From assembly GCF_027924145.1 (NCBI RefSeq), contig NZ_BRVP01000009.1:1-64000 (forward strand): 64,000 nt of DNA. The letters are read 5' to 3'. Each line of letters begins with the position of its first letter. Within the stretch, counting starts at the first letter, position 1. Below, piece by piece: positions 35,232-54,772 of the stretch. The DNA is from Neptunitalea chrysea. GTDB lineage: Bacteria; Bacteroidota; Bacteroidia; Flavobacteriales; Flavobacteriaceae. Position numbers and translations under genes: made by a program. The notes beneath the pieces were generated by a model. The model made no database searches, was not told the origin of the DNA, and was given only the letters and a program-made list of their open reading frames with translations.

Positions 35232-36518
35232 ATGATTATTGAATTTACAGTGGGTAATTTTTTGTCATTTAAGGAAAATAAAACATTATCCTTGGAAGCA
35301 ACTAATATAACAGAGCATAATAATTCTACTTTTAAAATAGGCAATTTTAAACTTTTAAAAAGTGCTGTTCTTTATGGTGCTAATTCAAGTGGTAAATCTA
35401 ATTTTATCAAAGCAATTTCCACCATGAAAAAGATTGTATTAACATCTGTTGAAAGAACATCTGCATCAAAATTTGAAGTTATTCCCTTTTTACTTAATAC
35501 AACGACAAAAAACGAACCTACTTTCTTTGAGGTTGTTTTTATAATTGAAAAAACTAGATATAGATATGGTTTTGAGATTGATAGCAATTCAATCTTAGGA
35601 GAATGGCTTTTTAAATTAGAAAAGCATGACGAGGTACCTCTTTTCATAAGAGAAGAAAATGGTATCGGAGTAACTGATGAATTTGTAGAAGGAAGGGGGC
35701 TTGAATCTAAAACTAGAGAAAACGCCCTTTTTGTTTCTGTTGTAGATCAATTTAATGGTGAGATTTCAGCCAGAATTATTCAATGGTTCGATAATTTAGG
35801 AACAATTTCCGGTTTAAGCCATGAAAACTATAGAGGCGTCACATTTTCTTTATTAGATAAGAAAACATCAAAAGAAAAGCTTTTAGATTTTTTCAAAGAC
35901 CTAGATTTAGGTTTTGAGCAGTTAAAATTCCGAAAAGAGAAATTTCAAGAAAGCATATTACCAAGTGACATTCCATCAGATCTTCTCGATGATATCATAA
36001 ACGATTTACAAGGGAAAACTATAGCTAGAATTAATACTGTTCATAAAATATTTGATGACAATGGTAATCAAGTTGGTTTAGAAGATTTTGAATTAAGAGA
36101 GCAGGAATCGTCAGGAACAAATAAGATAATTGATATTTCTGGTCCAATTTTCGATATTTTACTAGCAGGTGGGGTTCTAGTTATTGATGAATTAGATGCG
36201 AAACTACATCCTTTAATGACCGCAGCTATTACAAACTTGTTTAATTCTCCTGATTTTAATAACAATAATGCTCAATTAATTTTTGCTACTCATGATACTA
36301 ACTTACTATCATACGGTAAATTTAGAAGGGATCAAATCTACTTTTTGGAAAAAGATAAATTTGAAGCTAGTGATCTATATTCACTAATAGAGTACAAAGA
36401 AGAAGGCTCTGAGAAAAAAATCAGAAAAGATAGATCCTTTGAAAAAGATTATATTAAAGGTAGATATGGAGCCATACCCTTTATTGGAAACTTTGAAGAA
36501 ATTTTAAGAAATGGCTAA
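35232..36518 (+). CDS. AAA family ATPase, first gene of an AbiL/RloAB-like pair
   Basis: 428 aa, SMC/ABC-like ATPase of the AAA_21 type. [19 protein letters not shown] at the start, Walker A GANSSGKS (49-56), ABC signature ESSGT (292-296), Walker B VLVIDE (315-320) and H-loop ATHD (352-355). The central part is a coiled/variable insert. It overlaps the next ORF by 8 bp, so the two are translationally coupled. ATPases of this type with an RloB partner are annotated in abortive-infection systems such as AbiL; function here is by analogy. Confidence 0.88.
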
Positions 36519-37230
36519 TATTATAAAAATTGATAACGCTGTTCTCAAAAGAAGGCGAAGGACTGAACAAAAGCGTAAAACTGAATTTAAATCTAAAAGA
36601 ATGTTTTACCTAATTGTTTGTGAAGGTGAAAAAACGGAGCCTAACTATTTTGAATCACTTAAGAAGTCTCTCCCTAAAGGAGTTTTAGAATTAACAAATA
36701 TAGATATTGATGGAACAGGTAAGAATACTCTTTCAATTATTGATGAAGCTAAAAAGTTAAGGGATAAATATTATAGTCAATATTTACGAACAATAGACAA
36801 AGTTTGGGCTGTATTTGATAAAGATAGTTTTCCTGATGAAAATTTTAATAATGCCATAAACAAAGGAGAGAATTCAAAACTAAAGATTAATTGTGCTTGG
36901 ACGAATGAAGCTTTTGAGTTATGGTATTTATTGCATTTTAATTATTATAATACAGGAATTTCAAGAAGGCAGTATCAAAATCTTATAGAAAAGGAAATAA
37001 ATAGTGCGAGTAATAGAAGAGATTATCGATATTTAAAAAATTCTAAAGATATGTTTGCTCTTTTAAATAAGTATGGGGATCAAAAAAAAGCAATTACCAA
37101 TGCAGAAAGGTTAGAAAAGCAATATTTGGATAGAAATTTTGCTAGGCATAATCCATCTACGAGGGTACATAATTTGGTATGTGAATTAATAAAGTTAACA
37201 GAAGATTATGTTAGAGAACAAAGCATTTAG
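36511..37230 (+). CDS. rloB: RloB-like protein with Toprim-like core
   Basis: 239 aa. An Arg/Lys-rich start, then [19 protein letters not shown] with E38-G-E-K-T-E, and [10 protein letters not shown] with D103-K-D105; these match the E and DxD motifs of Toprim nucleases and the RloB family. ELWYLLHF is a further RloB landmark. Encoded in an 8-bp overlap with the AAA ATPase. Predicted effector of the pair; the target (DNA or RNA) is unknown. Confidence 0.85.
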
Positions 37231-41066: not shown

Positions 41067-41139
41067 GGGTAGCACCGGGACTCGAACCCTGTTCTCCTCA
41101 TTCACAGTGAGGCGTTTTACCGGTTAAACTAGAGCTACC
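41067..41139 (-). tRNA. tRNA-His(GTG), degenerate
   Basis: Anticodon arm CCTCA-CTGTGAA-TGAGG with anticodon GTG. Discriminator C73, the His identity base. Acceptor GGTAGC pairs GCTACC with a T-T mismatch at position 7-66. T arm CAGGG-TTCGAGT-CCCGG has one A-G mismatch, and there is one surplus nucleotide before the D stem (GTTT/AAAC). CCA is not encoded. It is the last gene of the array. Confidence 0.75.
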
Positions 41140-41188: not shown

Positions 41189-41240
41189 AGTAAACTACTT
41201 CGGAGCAAGCCCACAAAGTAGTTAACCTCAATTATTTAGT
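41189..41240 (-). repeat. Dispersed intergenic repeat, copy 7 (reverse, internally deleted)
   Basis: Read on the minus strand, AATAATTGAGGTTAACTAC, TTTGTGGGCTTGC and CCGAAGTAGTTTACTAG; the middle part of the consensus is missing. It lies inside the tRNA array between tRNA-Gln and tRNA-His, so it was gained within the array. Confidence 0.75.
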
Positions 41241-41310
41241 AAACCTAACAGGATTTGAACCTGTACTGCCAGTGCCAAAAACTGACGTGCTAACGTTACA
41301 CTATAGGTTT
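41240..41310 (-). tRNA. tRNA-Gln(TTG)
   Basis: Acceptor AAACCTA/TAGGTTT is perfect, D arm GTG/CAC, anticodon arm TCAGT-TTTTGGC-ACTGG with anticodon TTG, T arm ACAGG-TTCAAAT-CCTGT perfect. A73; no encoded CCA. The acceptor is A/T-rich and unlike a housekeeping Gln tRNA. Confidence 0.88.
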
Positions 41311-41323
41311 AAACATAAAATAG

Positions 41324-41396
41324 TACAAGAGAAGAGACTCCAGCTCTAAAAACCCTGATTCTAAATCAGGTGCGTGTGCCTGTACGCCACTCTTGT
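41324..41396 (-). tRNA. tRNA-Leu-like (TAG), class I shape
   Basis: Acceptor ACAAGAG/CTCTTGT perfect, T8 G9, D arm GCG/CGC with a Leu-like TGGCG start, anticodon arm CCTGA-TTTAGAA-TCAGG, anticodon TAG, A73 as for Leu. But the variable region is only five nucleotides, whereas bacterial tRNA-Leu has a long variable arm, and the T loop is CTGGAGT rather than TTCGAGT. Either an unusual tRNA or a decayed one. Confidence 0.65.
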
Positions 41397-41404
41397 AAGT
41401 GGAA

Positions 41405-41459
41405 ATAAGCGCTATGCCTACGGGAGACAGCCGTAAGCATAGGTTATTCCCTTTATTCC
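41405..41459 (-). other. Strong hairpin between tRNA-Cys and tRNA-Leu
   Basis: TATGCCTACGG ... CCGTAAGCATA with a 7-nt loop, extended on both sides by AATAA/TTATT pairing, forming a stem of about 17-20 bp. A small ATTCCA-CTCA-TGGAAT hairpin lies next to it. It may guide processing of the array transcript. A tRNA-Asp-like reading of the loop (CTGTCTC) fails because no T arm is present. Confidence 0.45.
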
Positions 41460-41472
41460 ATGAGTGGAATTG

Positions 41473-41544
41473 AGACAAGGATGGGATTCGAACCCATATA
41501 AAACAGATTTGCAGTCTGTTACCTAACCATTCAGTCACCTTATC
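41473..41544 (-). tRNA. tRNA-Cys(GCA)
   Basis: Acceptor GATAAGG/CCTTGTC (one G-U), D arm ACT/GGT, anticodon arm ACAGA-CTGCAAA-TCTGT with anticodon GCA, T arm ATGGG-TTCGAAT-CCCAT. U73 is present, the Cys identity discriminator. CCA is not encoded. Confidence 0.9.
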
Positions 41545-41556
41545 AAATCATTTTTG

Positions 41557-41639
41557 TGGAAGTGGTAGGATTTGAACCTACACGCCTAATAAGGACCAGA
41601 TTTACAGTCTGGCGAGCCAACCAATTGCTCAACACTTCC
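41557..41639 (-). tRNA. tRNA-Tyr(GTA)
   Basis: Acceptor GGAAGTG/CACTTCC, D arm GAGC/GCTC, anticodon arm CCAGA-CTGTAAA-TCTGG with anticodon GTA, a long variable arm as expected for bacterial Tyr, T arm GTAGG-TTCAAAT-CCTAC, A73. First gene of the array, 44 nt after the leader terminator. Confidence 0.92.
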
Positions 41640-41682: not shown

Positions 41683-41717
41683 AAAAAAGCATCTCCGGGA
41701 AAAGGAGATGCTTTTTT
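41683..41717 (-). terminator. Leader terminator between leader ORF 1 and the tRNA array
   Basis: On the minus strand AAAAAAGCATCTCC-TTTTCCC-GGAGATGCTTTTTT, a 14-bp stem and a T run: a strong intrinsic terminator. It lies 20 nt after the stop codon of leader ORF 1 and 44 nt before tRNA-Tyr. Its 5' arm and loop (ATCTCCTTTT, 41709-41700) are fully complementary to AAAAGGAGAT (41766-41757) within the leader ORF. Confidence 0.9.
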
Positions 41718-41737: not shown

Positions 41738-41866
41738 CTAGGGCATTATAAGTCGTATCTCCTTTTTAGGTATTTTATATAGTGTTGTACTACAGGCACA
41801 ATAATGTATATAATAACACAAACTAAGTTGCGATTGCTGCTGTGTATGTAGTGTATGTGTTTTCAT
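41738..41866 (-). CDS. Leader peptide 1 of the tRNA array (predicted)
   Basis: 42 aa, ATG at 41866, starting MKTHTLHTQQQSQLSLCYY. His, Gln, Leu, Cys and Tyr make up 18 of the first 30 residues, three of them (His, Cys, Gln) normally rare. The order of the runs is His, Gln, Leu, Cys, Tyr, the reverse of the order of the tRNA genes downstream (Tyr, Cys, Leu, Gln, His). Codons used (CAT, CAA/CAG, CTA/CTT, TGT, TAT) are those read by these tRNAs, apart from one TTG. The 3' part carries the putative antiterminator strand. A TTG (41925)-N20-CATCTTTG (41902-41895) promoter lies upstream. Related to leader ORF 2. Translation is not proved. Confidence 0.6.
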   Translation of the reverse strand: MKTHTLHTQQQSQLSLCYYIHYCACSTTLYKIPKKEIRLIMP

Positions 41867-41894: not shown

Positions 41895-41925
41895 CAAAGA
41901 TGGAAACCTTTTTTGAATTACACAA
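41895..41925 (-). promoter_or_regulatory. Putative promoter of leader 1 and tRNA array
   Basis: TTG, 20 nt, CATCTTTG, close to the Bacteroidota TTG-N19-TAnnTTTG pattern. It would start transcription about 20-25 nt before the leader ATG. Confidence 0.5.
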
Positions 41926-42117
41926 ATTATTTTTACATTTAAAATGTTGATAATCAGTGTTTTGTGTGTTGATTTTAGCGTGTTGAATTCCTGTCCGGCA
42001 TCATGCGGATTCTTGAAATGTATACAACTGACTGTCTCCCAATTGTTTTGTTTTCAATTCAATTATTTGTTATGTTTTGTACTACAGTAACTTTGCATCT
42101 CAAAAAAAATTAAAAAA

Positions 42118-42145
42118 AAAGCGTCCAATTTATATTGGACGCTTT
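42118..42145 (-). terminator. Intrinsic terminator after leader ORF 2
   Basis: AAAGCGTCCAAT-ATAA-ATTGGACGCTTT on the minus strand followed by further T residues; 12-bp perfect stem. It lies 36 nt past the stop codon of leader ORF 2. Its 5' arm (AGCGTCC, 42143-42137) can pair with GGATGCT in the leader (42207-42201), including one G-U, giving a weaker antiterminator. Confidence 0.85.
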
Positions 42146-42181
42146 GTATAACTGATTTTAGTTGTTTTTCTATCGTATGAA

Positions 42182-42289
42182 TCACCTTAAATTAGCCCGC
42201 AGCATCCTGTGTTGTTCACTATATAATGAACAAGAATAACATAGTTGTACACTATGTTGCTGTATGCTATGTAGGGTAACTGTTTTCAT
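42182..42289 (-). CDS. Leader peptide 2 (predicted), paralogue of leader 1
   Basis: 35 aa, ATG at 42289, MKTVTLHSIQQHSVQLCYS at the start. Aligns with leader 1: MKTxTLH, QQ, QL, LCY in the same places. His, Gln, Leu, Cys and Tyr are 16 of 35 residues. TACTTTTG at 42306-42299 fits a -7 element, but would leave almost no untranslated leader. The ORF stops (TGA) before a 12-bp-stem terminator. Short ORFs are easily formed by chance, and the case rests on the similarity between the two copies. Confidence 0.55.
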   Translation of the reverse strand: MKTVTLHSIQQHSVQLCYSCSLYSEQHRMLRANLR

Positions 42290-42368
42290 ATAATCTTACA
42301 AAAGTAGTGTTTTATTACGTAAATATGCTTTTATAGCACAAAGGGATGTTCCTCTTGGCTAGCCTAAA

Positions 42369-52681: not shown

Positions 52682-54772
52682 ATGAATTTAGATACACAAA
52701 GCCTACAACCTATTATAAACTTCATCTGGACAGTAGCAGATGATGTTTTAATCAATAAGTATTTAGAAAACCAATATCAAGACGTTATATTACCGATGAC
52801 AGTGTTAAGACGTTTAGATTTGGCGTTAGAGCCTACCAAAGACCAAGTACTTAAAACGCATAAAGAATTTAAGAGTAAAATAGATAATCTTCTAGGTTTA
52901 CTAACAAGTAAAGAACACGGTTCTGGATTGGCATTTTACAACACTTCACCATACACAATGAAAAAGTTGTTGGATGACCCAAAAAACATTGACAGTAACT
53001 TTGAGGACTATCTAAACGGATTCTCAGAAAACGTACAAGACATCATTTCTAAATTCAAATTTAGAAACCAATTAGAAACACTTGAAAATGGTGGTATTAC
53101 TTTTTCACTTATCGAAAAATTCTGTAATCCAAAAATAGAATTACGCCCTGAAAAAATATCACCTATGGCAATGGGTTATATGTTTGAGGACTTAATTCGC
53201 AGATTTAACGAAAAAACAAACGCTGCTGCTGGACGTCACTTTACACCAAGAGAGATTATTGAATTAATGACCCATTTGGTGTATTTGCCTGTAAAAGACC
53301 AAATACAAAACGGAACGTTTTTAGTATACGACCCTTGTGCGGGTTCTGGAGCAATGCTAACACAATCCAAAAAATATGCAACCAATCCTGATGGAGAAAT
53401 AAAATCTAAAGCAACCTTTCATTTATACGGACAAGAAAACACAGGTGAAATGTATGCGGTTTGTAAATCAGATATGCTACTAAAAGGCGAAGACCCAGAT
53501 AAAATAAAATTTGGCTCTACCCTAAGCGAGTATGGATTTGACCCAAACCTAAAGTTTAACTTTATGCTTACCAACCCACCATACGGTACAAGTTGGAAAG
53601 AAGACCAAAAAGAACTGAACGTAGGGACAGCCAAAAAAATAGAAATAAACGATACACGTTTTAACCTACCTATTAAAAACTTTAAAGGCGAACTCGAAGA
53701 AACATGTTTGACTTCACGTAGCAATGACGGACAGTTAATGTTTATGCTACATATGCTTTCTAAAATGAAAGCCCCAAAAGATGGTGGTAGCCGTATTGCT
53801 TCTGTACACAATGGTTCTGCCCTATTTACAGGAGATGCAGGGAGTGGTGAAAGTGGTATACGCCAATACATTTTAGAAAACGACTTGCTAGAGTGTATTA
53901 TACAATTGCCCAACGATATGTTTTACAACACAGGTATTGCCACCTATATCTGGATTTTAAGCAATGTAAAAGAAGACAAACGAAAAGGAAAAGTACAGTT
54001 GATAAATGCCTCTTCTAAAGGTGAGTTTTCTAAAAAAATGAGAAAGCCTTTAGGAGATAAAAGAGTTGAATTAAATCCTAGCCATATTTTAGATATTCAA
54101 AATTTATATTTTGCCTTTGAAGAAAATGAATATTCTAAAATATTCGATAATGAGGATTTTGGCTTTTACCAAATTACAACGCAACAGCCATTAAAATTAG
54201 CTATTACTAATTGTAAAGAAAAAATTAGAAATGGTAAAGGAGCTTATTTAGAAGATTTATTGAATGTTGCAGGTTTTAACATTGAAGTAATAGCAGACTT
54301 TTTTGGAGATGATATCCATTTAGATTTCAATAAATCTATAATTGATTTTTCTAGTCATTTGGGAGTTAAAAAGGAAGGATTTATAAATAAAACCATAAGG
54401 GATGTTTTGTCTGTATTTGCAGAAACAAATAGTGATGCTAAACCAGTCTTTAAAAATATAAATGATTATAAGAAACATAAAACTCAACCCGAAAAAAGAG
54501 TAGAGAATACAAAATATATAATTGATAAAGATTTAAAAGATTTTGAAAATGTGCCAATGACTGAAAATATTGAAACATATTTTCAACGAGAGGTAAAACC
54601 ATTTGCACCTGACGCTTGGTACGATAAAAAGAAAATGAAAGTAGGTTATAATATTCCATTAACTAAGCATTTTTACAAGTATGATGAACTTAGAAATCTT
54701 GATGTTATCACAAAAGAAATACTCTCTTTAGAACAAGAAACAGATGGTTTGTTAAAAGAAATTATTGACTAA
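52682..54772 (+). CDS. hsdM: Type I restriction-modification methyltransferase subunit
   Basis: 696 aa. N-terminal HsdM helical bundle, AdoMet motif I DPCAGSG (217-223), catalytic motif IV NPPY (298-301) for N6-adenine methylation, plus RHFTPREIIELM. The C-terminal part is extended (residues 500-696) and includes the EAxRDVLSVFAETN-like region linked to HsdS binding. Overlaps hsdS by 1 bp. Confidence 0.96.
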   Translation: MNLDTQSLQPIINFIWTVADDVLINKYLENQYQDVILPMTVLRRLDLALEPTKDQVLKTHKEFKSKIDNLLGLLTSKEHGSGLAFYNTSPYTMKKLLDDPKNIDSNFEDYLNGFSENVQDIISKFKFRNQLETLENGGITFSLIEKFCNPKIELRPEKISPMAMGYMFEDLIRRFNEKTNAAAGRHFTPREIIELMTHLVYLPVKDQIQNGTFLVYDPCAGSGAMLTQSKKYATNPDGEIKSKATFHLYGQENTGEMYAVCKSDMLLKGEDPDKIKFGSTLSEYGFDPNLKFNFMLTNPPYGTSWKEDQKELNVGTAKKIEINDTRFNLPIKNFKGELEETCLTSRSNDGQLMFMLHMLSKMKAPKDGGSRIASVHNGSALFTGDAGSGESGIRQYILENDLLECIIQLPNDMFYNTGIATYIWILSNVKEDKRKGKVQLINASSKGEFSKKMRKPLGDKRVELNPSHILDIQNLYFAFEENEYSKIFDNEDFGFYQITTQQPLKLAITNCKEKIRNGKGAYLEDLLNVAGFNIEVIADFFGDDIHLDFNKSIIDFSSHLGVKKEGFINKTIRDVLSVFAETNSDAKPVFKNINDYKKHKTQPEKRVENTKYIIDKDLKDFENVPMTENIETYFQREVKPFAPDAWYDKKKMKVGYNIPLTKHFYKYDELRNLDVITKEILSLEQETDGLLKEIID

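Follow-up and report, generated by a model that had tools for sequence, protein, structure and literature searches.

The stretch of DNA analysed here, referred to as the window, comprises positions 1-64,000 (64,000 nt) of the forward strand of contig NZ_BRVP01000009.1 of Neptunitalea chrysea (GCF_027924145.1). On its minus strand a lipocalin-like gene (42767-42369) is followed by a distal leader, a terminator, a conserved block, a promoter-like pair, a proximal leader, a second terminator and five tRNA genes. The latter constitute an array of tRNA-Tyr (GTA, 41556-41639), tRNA-Cys (GCA, 41472-41544), tRNA-Leu (TAG, 41323-41396), tRNA-Gln (TTG, 41239-41310) and tRNA-His (GTG, 41067-41139), with a relic Asp-type anticodon hairpin (41419-41435; loop CTGTCTC, 41430-41424) between the second and the third gene. 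The genome gave 52 tRNA matches, and as the array tRNAs are 54-65% identical to the chromosomal tRNAs of the same anticodon, the array represents a second set. In a congener (G001) the neighbouring RadA gene is present, and no tRNA was detected in the 9 kb from there. The same window holds an AbiL-like pair about 4 kb from the array (35232-37230; AAA_21 ATPase with RloB protein, PADLOC AbiLi and AbiLii) and a type I methyltransferase (52682-54772).

The distal leader (leader 1) is a minus-strand ORF of 35 amino acids at 42182-42289 (MKTVTLHSIQQHSVQLCYSCSLYSEQHRMLRANLR, closed by a stop codon), as in the original prediction, with control codons for His, Gln, Leu, Cys and Tyr. The 12-bp-stem terminator described along with it (42118-42145, then T's) was found to be stable at -16.7 kcal/mol (z -6.4), a value reached by 0 of 200 shuffled sequences. 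Likewise, the proposed antiterminator stood up: GGATGCT (42207-42201), located within the ORF about 24 nt ahead of the stop codon, can pair with AGCGTCC (42143-42137) in the 5' arm of the terminator, and this duplex of -12.0 kcal/mol was equalled by 2% of shuffles. Downstream, the block (41960-42065; covariance model R1) contains a hairpin (42046-42024) with the loop GAGACAG (42038-42032) and then a second hairpin. The promoter-like pair (41895-41926), composed of TTTG at 41926-41923 and TTTG at 41898-41895, precedes the proximal leader, an ORF of 42 amino acids (41738-41866) that is supported by the content test given below. Its antiterminator 5' arm AAAAGGAGAT (41757-41766) pairs with ATCTCCTTTT (41709-41700), and its terminator, a 14-bp stem with T-run (41683-41717), stands ahead of the array. 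The richness in His, Gln, Leu, Cys and Tyr that had been pointed out for both ORFs amounts to 14/26 and 18/32 control-region residues (shuffle P 0.004 and <0.001). In the window leader the control codons follow the order H-Q-L-C-Y, the reverse of the gene order Y-C-L-Q-H; no such reversal was seen in leaders of other loci when these were compared by eye and without a statistic.

Related loci were then sought. When the DNA of the array was compared with 40 relatives, one clearly related array (G020) came up, found without using the leaders, and upstream of it two leader ORFs of quite different sequence as well as the same block were present. A pattern of the block matched 3 of 397 family genomes (the reversed pattern: none among the matches listed) and, in a collection of 84,980 species, 12 places, of which 7 displayed a tRNA array with two leaders and 5 did not; pattern matches without tRNA genes or such leaders (L043, L047, L048, L050, L051) were dropped. 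A covariance model of the block built from 8 loci gave matches in 7 of 395 class genomes, that of the window being one of these, which added 8 new loci in 6 genomes, and in 7 of 296 genomes drawn from the phylum, 3 of these new. Altogether 19 loci are known, an array being present in 18 of them and missing from L071. As the block was what these searches looked for, its conservation is in part a product of the search; leaders and arrays played no part in the block searches, with the exception of G020, which was located by its tRNAs. A phage or plasmid origin of the array found no support: the phage collection contained no similar DNA, the plasmids gave one 43-nt match, and the block pattern matched none of the viral contigs.

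The arrangement of leader 1, terminator, hairpin block, promoter, leader 2, terminator and tRNA array is displayed by 18 Bacteroidia loci. A hairpin with T-run follows the stop codon in 32 of 32 leaders (16 loci, L071 included and the last three loci excluded), and a short leader ORF lies directly ahead of a terminator also in the 6 leaders of these last three. In most distal leaders an arm GGAYGC(T) within the ORF pairs with the terminator 5' arm (shuffle P about 0.02), and its start is 67-85 nt away from the start codon in 15 of 16. Antiterminator pairing was weak, or did not surpass that of shuffled sequences, for many proximal leaders (P 0.2-0.5) and for the distal ones of L065 and L067. 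Ahead of the proximal leader a TTG-N24/25-TTTG pair, which we take to be the form of Bacteroidetes promoters, occurs in 18 of 18 loci with a spacing constant within one base; a comparable pair ahead of the distal leader was detected in some loci, the window not being among them. Thus, the distal unit would usually yield a short terminated RNA, and RNA escaping the distal terminator would meet a second gate, so that both roles originally suggested for the distal unit, a gate in series and a separate small transcript, fit the locus. The claim that chance is an unlikely source of this unit is borne out as well: distal leader, terminator and antiterminator are kept independently of the proximal unit, with the architecture present in 18 further loci, which makes chance very unlikely. 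The locus without array (L071, on contig C13 of G335) possesses both leaders and terminators, has lost the GAGACAG loop and shows no tRNA in the downstream stretch scanned; it is either orphaned or directed at a different target.

The leaders differ in sequence, but the amino acids they contain track the tRNAs of the array. Over 18 loci and both leaders, 239 of 242 leader-by-amino-acid cells were filled. The first 8 loci filled all of their cells (124/124), both leaders containing each amino acid for which an intact array tRNA exists, and the 10 test loci found later reached 115/118, the misses (Trp twice, Arg once) all belonging to L064. When arrays were reassigned to loci at random, 0 of 200,000 arrangements were as good, for all 18 loci, for the 10 test loci and for a set of 14 in which one member of the close clade was retained; random leaders of pooled composition filled at most 226 cells in 2,000 draws. 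Within the first 8 loci the residues D, F, P, R, E, S and C were present in 64/64 cells with an intact tRNA and absent in 25/48 cells without one, and Asp codons occurred in the control regions of none but the two loci with an intact tRNA-Asp. Even the codon family of Arg corresponds to the anticodon: leaders of arrays with tRNA-Arg(ACG) contain 24 CGN versus 6 AGR codons, those with tRNA-Arg(UCU) only 2 versus 6, those with both 5 versus 6 and those with none 10 versus 8, as compared to 264 versus 264 in the long ORFs of the window. L071 was left out of these tests because it has no array. At five leaders (proximal in L064 and L049; distal in L065, L053 and, with GTG, L069) a start differing from the longest ATG frame, or GTG, was chosen so as to give the customary spacing from the terminator; when the longest ATG frame was taken throughout, 0 of 200,000 shuffles were as good for the 18 loci and 1 of 200,000 for the test set. 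The correspondence of leaders and arrays is firm. Misfits occur: Ser (5 and 3 residues) and Thr (2 and 5) are found in the window leaders although the array has no tRNA for either, the leaders of L049 and L044 retain codons whose tRNAs are disrupted or missing, and a prediction made blind for L067 (Val, Ala and Thr tRNAs) failed, while those of Lys and Gly at this locus were not blind, as the tRNAs had already been seen.

Several arrays showed peculiarities of their own. In L049, L044, L052 and L068 tRNAs are interrupted by palindromic inserts of about 50 nt, several of them in the anticodon loop, and related insert sequences were found in different tRNAs and loci. At 2536-2610 of L053 a tRNA-Leu-like array gene carries the anticodon TAT (reading AUA) in place of TAG, and in L066 (G600) the first array tRNA, called Cys with the anticodon ACA, resembles tRNA-Arg(ACG) of L068 in its body and possibly acquired a changed anticodon.

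On these grounds we consider it quite probable that both leaders encode composite control peptides of ribosome-mediated transcription attenuators governing a reserve tRNA array. Judged by the leader anatomy, ribosome stalling and antitermination are the likely working mode. We infer that the leaders would be translated, that ribosomes would stall on them and that attenuation would operate in vivo as follows. With array tRNAs plentiful, the ribosome would reach the stop codon and cover the arm of the antiterminator in the final part of the ORF, whereupon the terminator would form and the tRNA genes stay off. If at least one array tRNA became scarce, through nuclease cleavage or for want of charging, the ribosome would stall at the corresponding codons upstream, the arm would be free to pair with the terminator 5' arm, and RNA polymerase would read into the array, the products of which would restore decoding. 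The distal unit would be the first gate for RNA started at a promoter further upstream, and as the proximal unit has a promoter of its own, the array would possess one single-gated and one double-gated source. A cell short of the listed tRNAs would thus probably switch on its spare set, which amounts to a feedback circuit.

The same molecular machinery would serve an amino-acid starvation attenuator, in which the leaders sense uncharged tRNA and the array is a gene set of the starvation response, and a leader listing many amino acids would indeed respond to starvation too. Extra tRNA, however, is no cure for a missing amino acid, the leader content tracks the tRNA genes locus by locus down to the Arg anticodon present, and RNA-repair genes adjoin many loci, so that we regard starvation as an unlikely purpose of the system. 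Homologues of RtcB, PrfH or RlaP were found in the stretches retrieved for 12 of 19 loci (L052, L053, L042, L044, L046, L049, L064, L065, L068, L069, L096, L097), a raw count that includes a homologue of 30% identity in L065 and a 33-residue edge match in L097; in 8 loci the repair homologue is situated directly before the distal leader. The window has no adjacent repair gene, and the RtcB-PrfH pair of this genome is located on another contig (C7). That damage to tRNA is what naturally triggers the system is a reasoned guess, drawn from these neighbours and from how the circuit would work. RlaP is reported as predicted to restore nucleotides lost from cleaved RNA ahead of ligation (PMC7824862). 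For RtcB2-PrfH of E. coli no protection from the tRNA-cleaving colicins E5 and D was reported, which counts against a tRNA role of this pair (PMC9223846).

Five close loci allowed the substitution pattern of the leaders to be followed. Their control regions accumulated at least 83 substitutions with 0 stops (5.1 expected) and, in agreement with the original prediction, neither frameshift nor stop interrupts them; the control-region ORFs align with 0 gapped columns versus 4-8 in neighbouring stretches, and other reading frames contain stops in nearly all members. Differences are spread evenly over the codon positions (50/66/50 and 85/56/60 for the two leaders), a concentration at third positions not being seen, which speaks against the original prediction, where an even spread had been named as contrary evidence. 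The pN/pS values of the two leaders are 0.74 and 0.69, and in the close clade amino-acid changes did not stay within the array set above random (83/169 versus 0.65 expected). An open frame combined with such values, even positions and unconfined changes suggests that selection acts on which codons occur somewhere in the leader and not on the peptide itself. The even spread, together with terminator surroundings and block that are more conserved than the ORFs, would also suit a locus in which block and terminators are the functional parts, as small RNA or DNA elements, and the ORFs happen to be open or code for a peptide of another role. Such a locus would not account for the correspondence of content and array across 18 loci, nor for ORFs that diverge without indels or stops while the other frames do not stay open, and we hold it to be more unlikely still than the starvation response.

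Common ancestry of the loci, whose clade members are not independent, could by itself have handed down leaders and arrays jointly, yet the relation persists with one close-clade member, in the 10 test loci and within the six loci of one genus (g143; 284 of 200,000 array shuffles as good), which leaves mere shared inheritance very improbable.

The distal unit had originally been taken for a tandem copy of the proximal one. In the window the two ORFs do resemble each other: their first 33 nt are 76% identical, and the protein local score between distal and proximal leader is 57. In 15 other loci, however, the leaders of a pair scored 12-29 against each other and the terminators are of different types (GCGTCC and GCAYCTCC), so that distal and proximal leader are separate, unlike modules there and the resemblance of the two ORFs is confined to the window among the loci compared. 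The ORF starts of the window may have undergone gene conversion. The shared residue order did not hold as a general feature across loci; the property in common is residue content. That the distal unit arose by recent tandem duplication of the proximal leader and has no role of its own is hardly credible in view of both units being present in all 18 other loci with ORF pairs unlike in the 15 tested. The distal leader is a conserved module that probably acts as upstream gate, not a simple copy of the proximal one.

The block adds a further feature to the attenuator arrangement. Its loop GAGACAG complements without mismatch the whole seven-base Asp-type anticodon loop of the array, CTGTCTC, in all 15 array loci examined and in three added later; L071, without array, has neither of the two loops. 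The loop of the chromosomal tRNA-Asp in N. chrysea reads CTGTCAC. The Asp-type hairpin covaries (27 double-change cells versus 8.7 in shuffles, in a set of 14 distinct sequences, six of these intact tRNA-Asp), and covariation of the block stem is weaker. A relic hairpin with invariant CTGTCTC and the rest of the tRNA decayed was observed in the window, L042, L044, L046, L049, L053, L065, L068 and L069. As the loop is kept in a covarying hairpin although the tRNA has decayed, it may be a nuclease decoy or a T-box-like feedback partner, both roles, decoy and RNA-RNA feedback, being guesses. A self-matching tRNA-insurance system, in which two codon-content sensors are joined by the block hairpin as a third RNA sensor, maybe as decoy for an anticodon nuclease or as T-box-like feedback partner, is a tentative and rather doubtful extension.

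If the attenuator reading is true, bacteria use a peptide that lists individual tRNAs to gauge how well each is supplied, and keep a divergent emergency set at hand. Attenuation, tRNA arrays and RNA repair would be joined in one circuit, silent tRNA arrays would have a reason, and a leader sequence would predict which tRNAs are stored downstream and which attacks on tRNA open the gate.

The trp, his and phe leaders are ribosome-mediated attenuators of amino-acid operons (Rfam Phe_leader RF01859). They share with the present leaders a short ORF of control codons, an arm near the ORF end and, as predicted here, mutually exclusive antiterminator and terminator; here, by contrast, the genes regulated would be tRNA genes, 2-14 amino acids are covered at once in accordance with the array, and two units are arranged in tandem. 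In the window Rfam gave sub-threshold matches to Phe_leader (27.8 bits, gathering 55), and in four relatives no family other than tRNA was matched. T-box leaders are RNA leaders reporting on the state of a tRNA. The block hairpin is alike in that its loop contains the Asp codon GAC and is able to pair with an anticodon loop, and unlike in that its partner is the array's own Asp-type loop; the T-box covariance model of Rfam matched neither the window nor the four relatives. A description of a tRNA array under leader-peptide control was not found in the open full-text literature, with subscription papers mostly outside its range. The RtcB2-PrfH and RlaP modules, homologues of which adjoin many arrays here, repair RNA (PMC9223846, PMC7824862), and the text on RtcB2-PrfH makes no mention of an array or leader (PMC9223846). 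Within the literature searched, the nearest known system is the cryptic trn operon of Anabaena, a normally silent second tRNA set that is turned on under translational stress and coregulated with rtcB (PMC10272220). This text does not mention leader or attenuation and names the DNA-binding repressor TrcR as the controlling factor (PMC10272220), whereas in the loci described here RNA leaders matched to the array would take that place.
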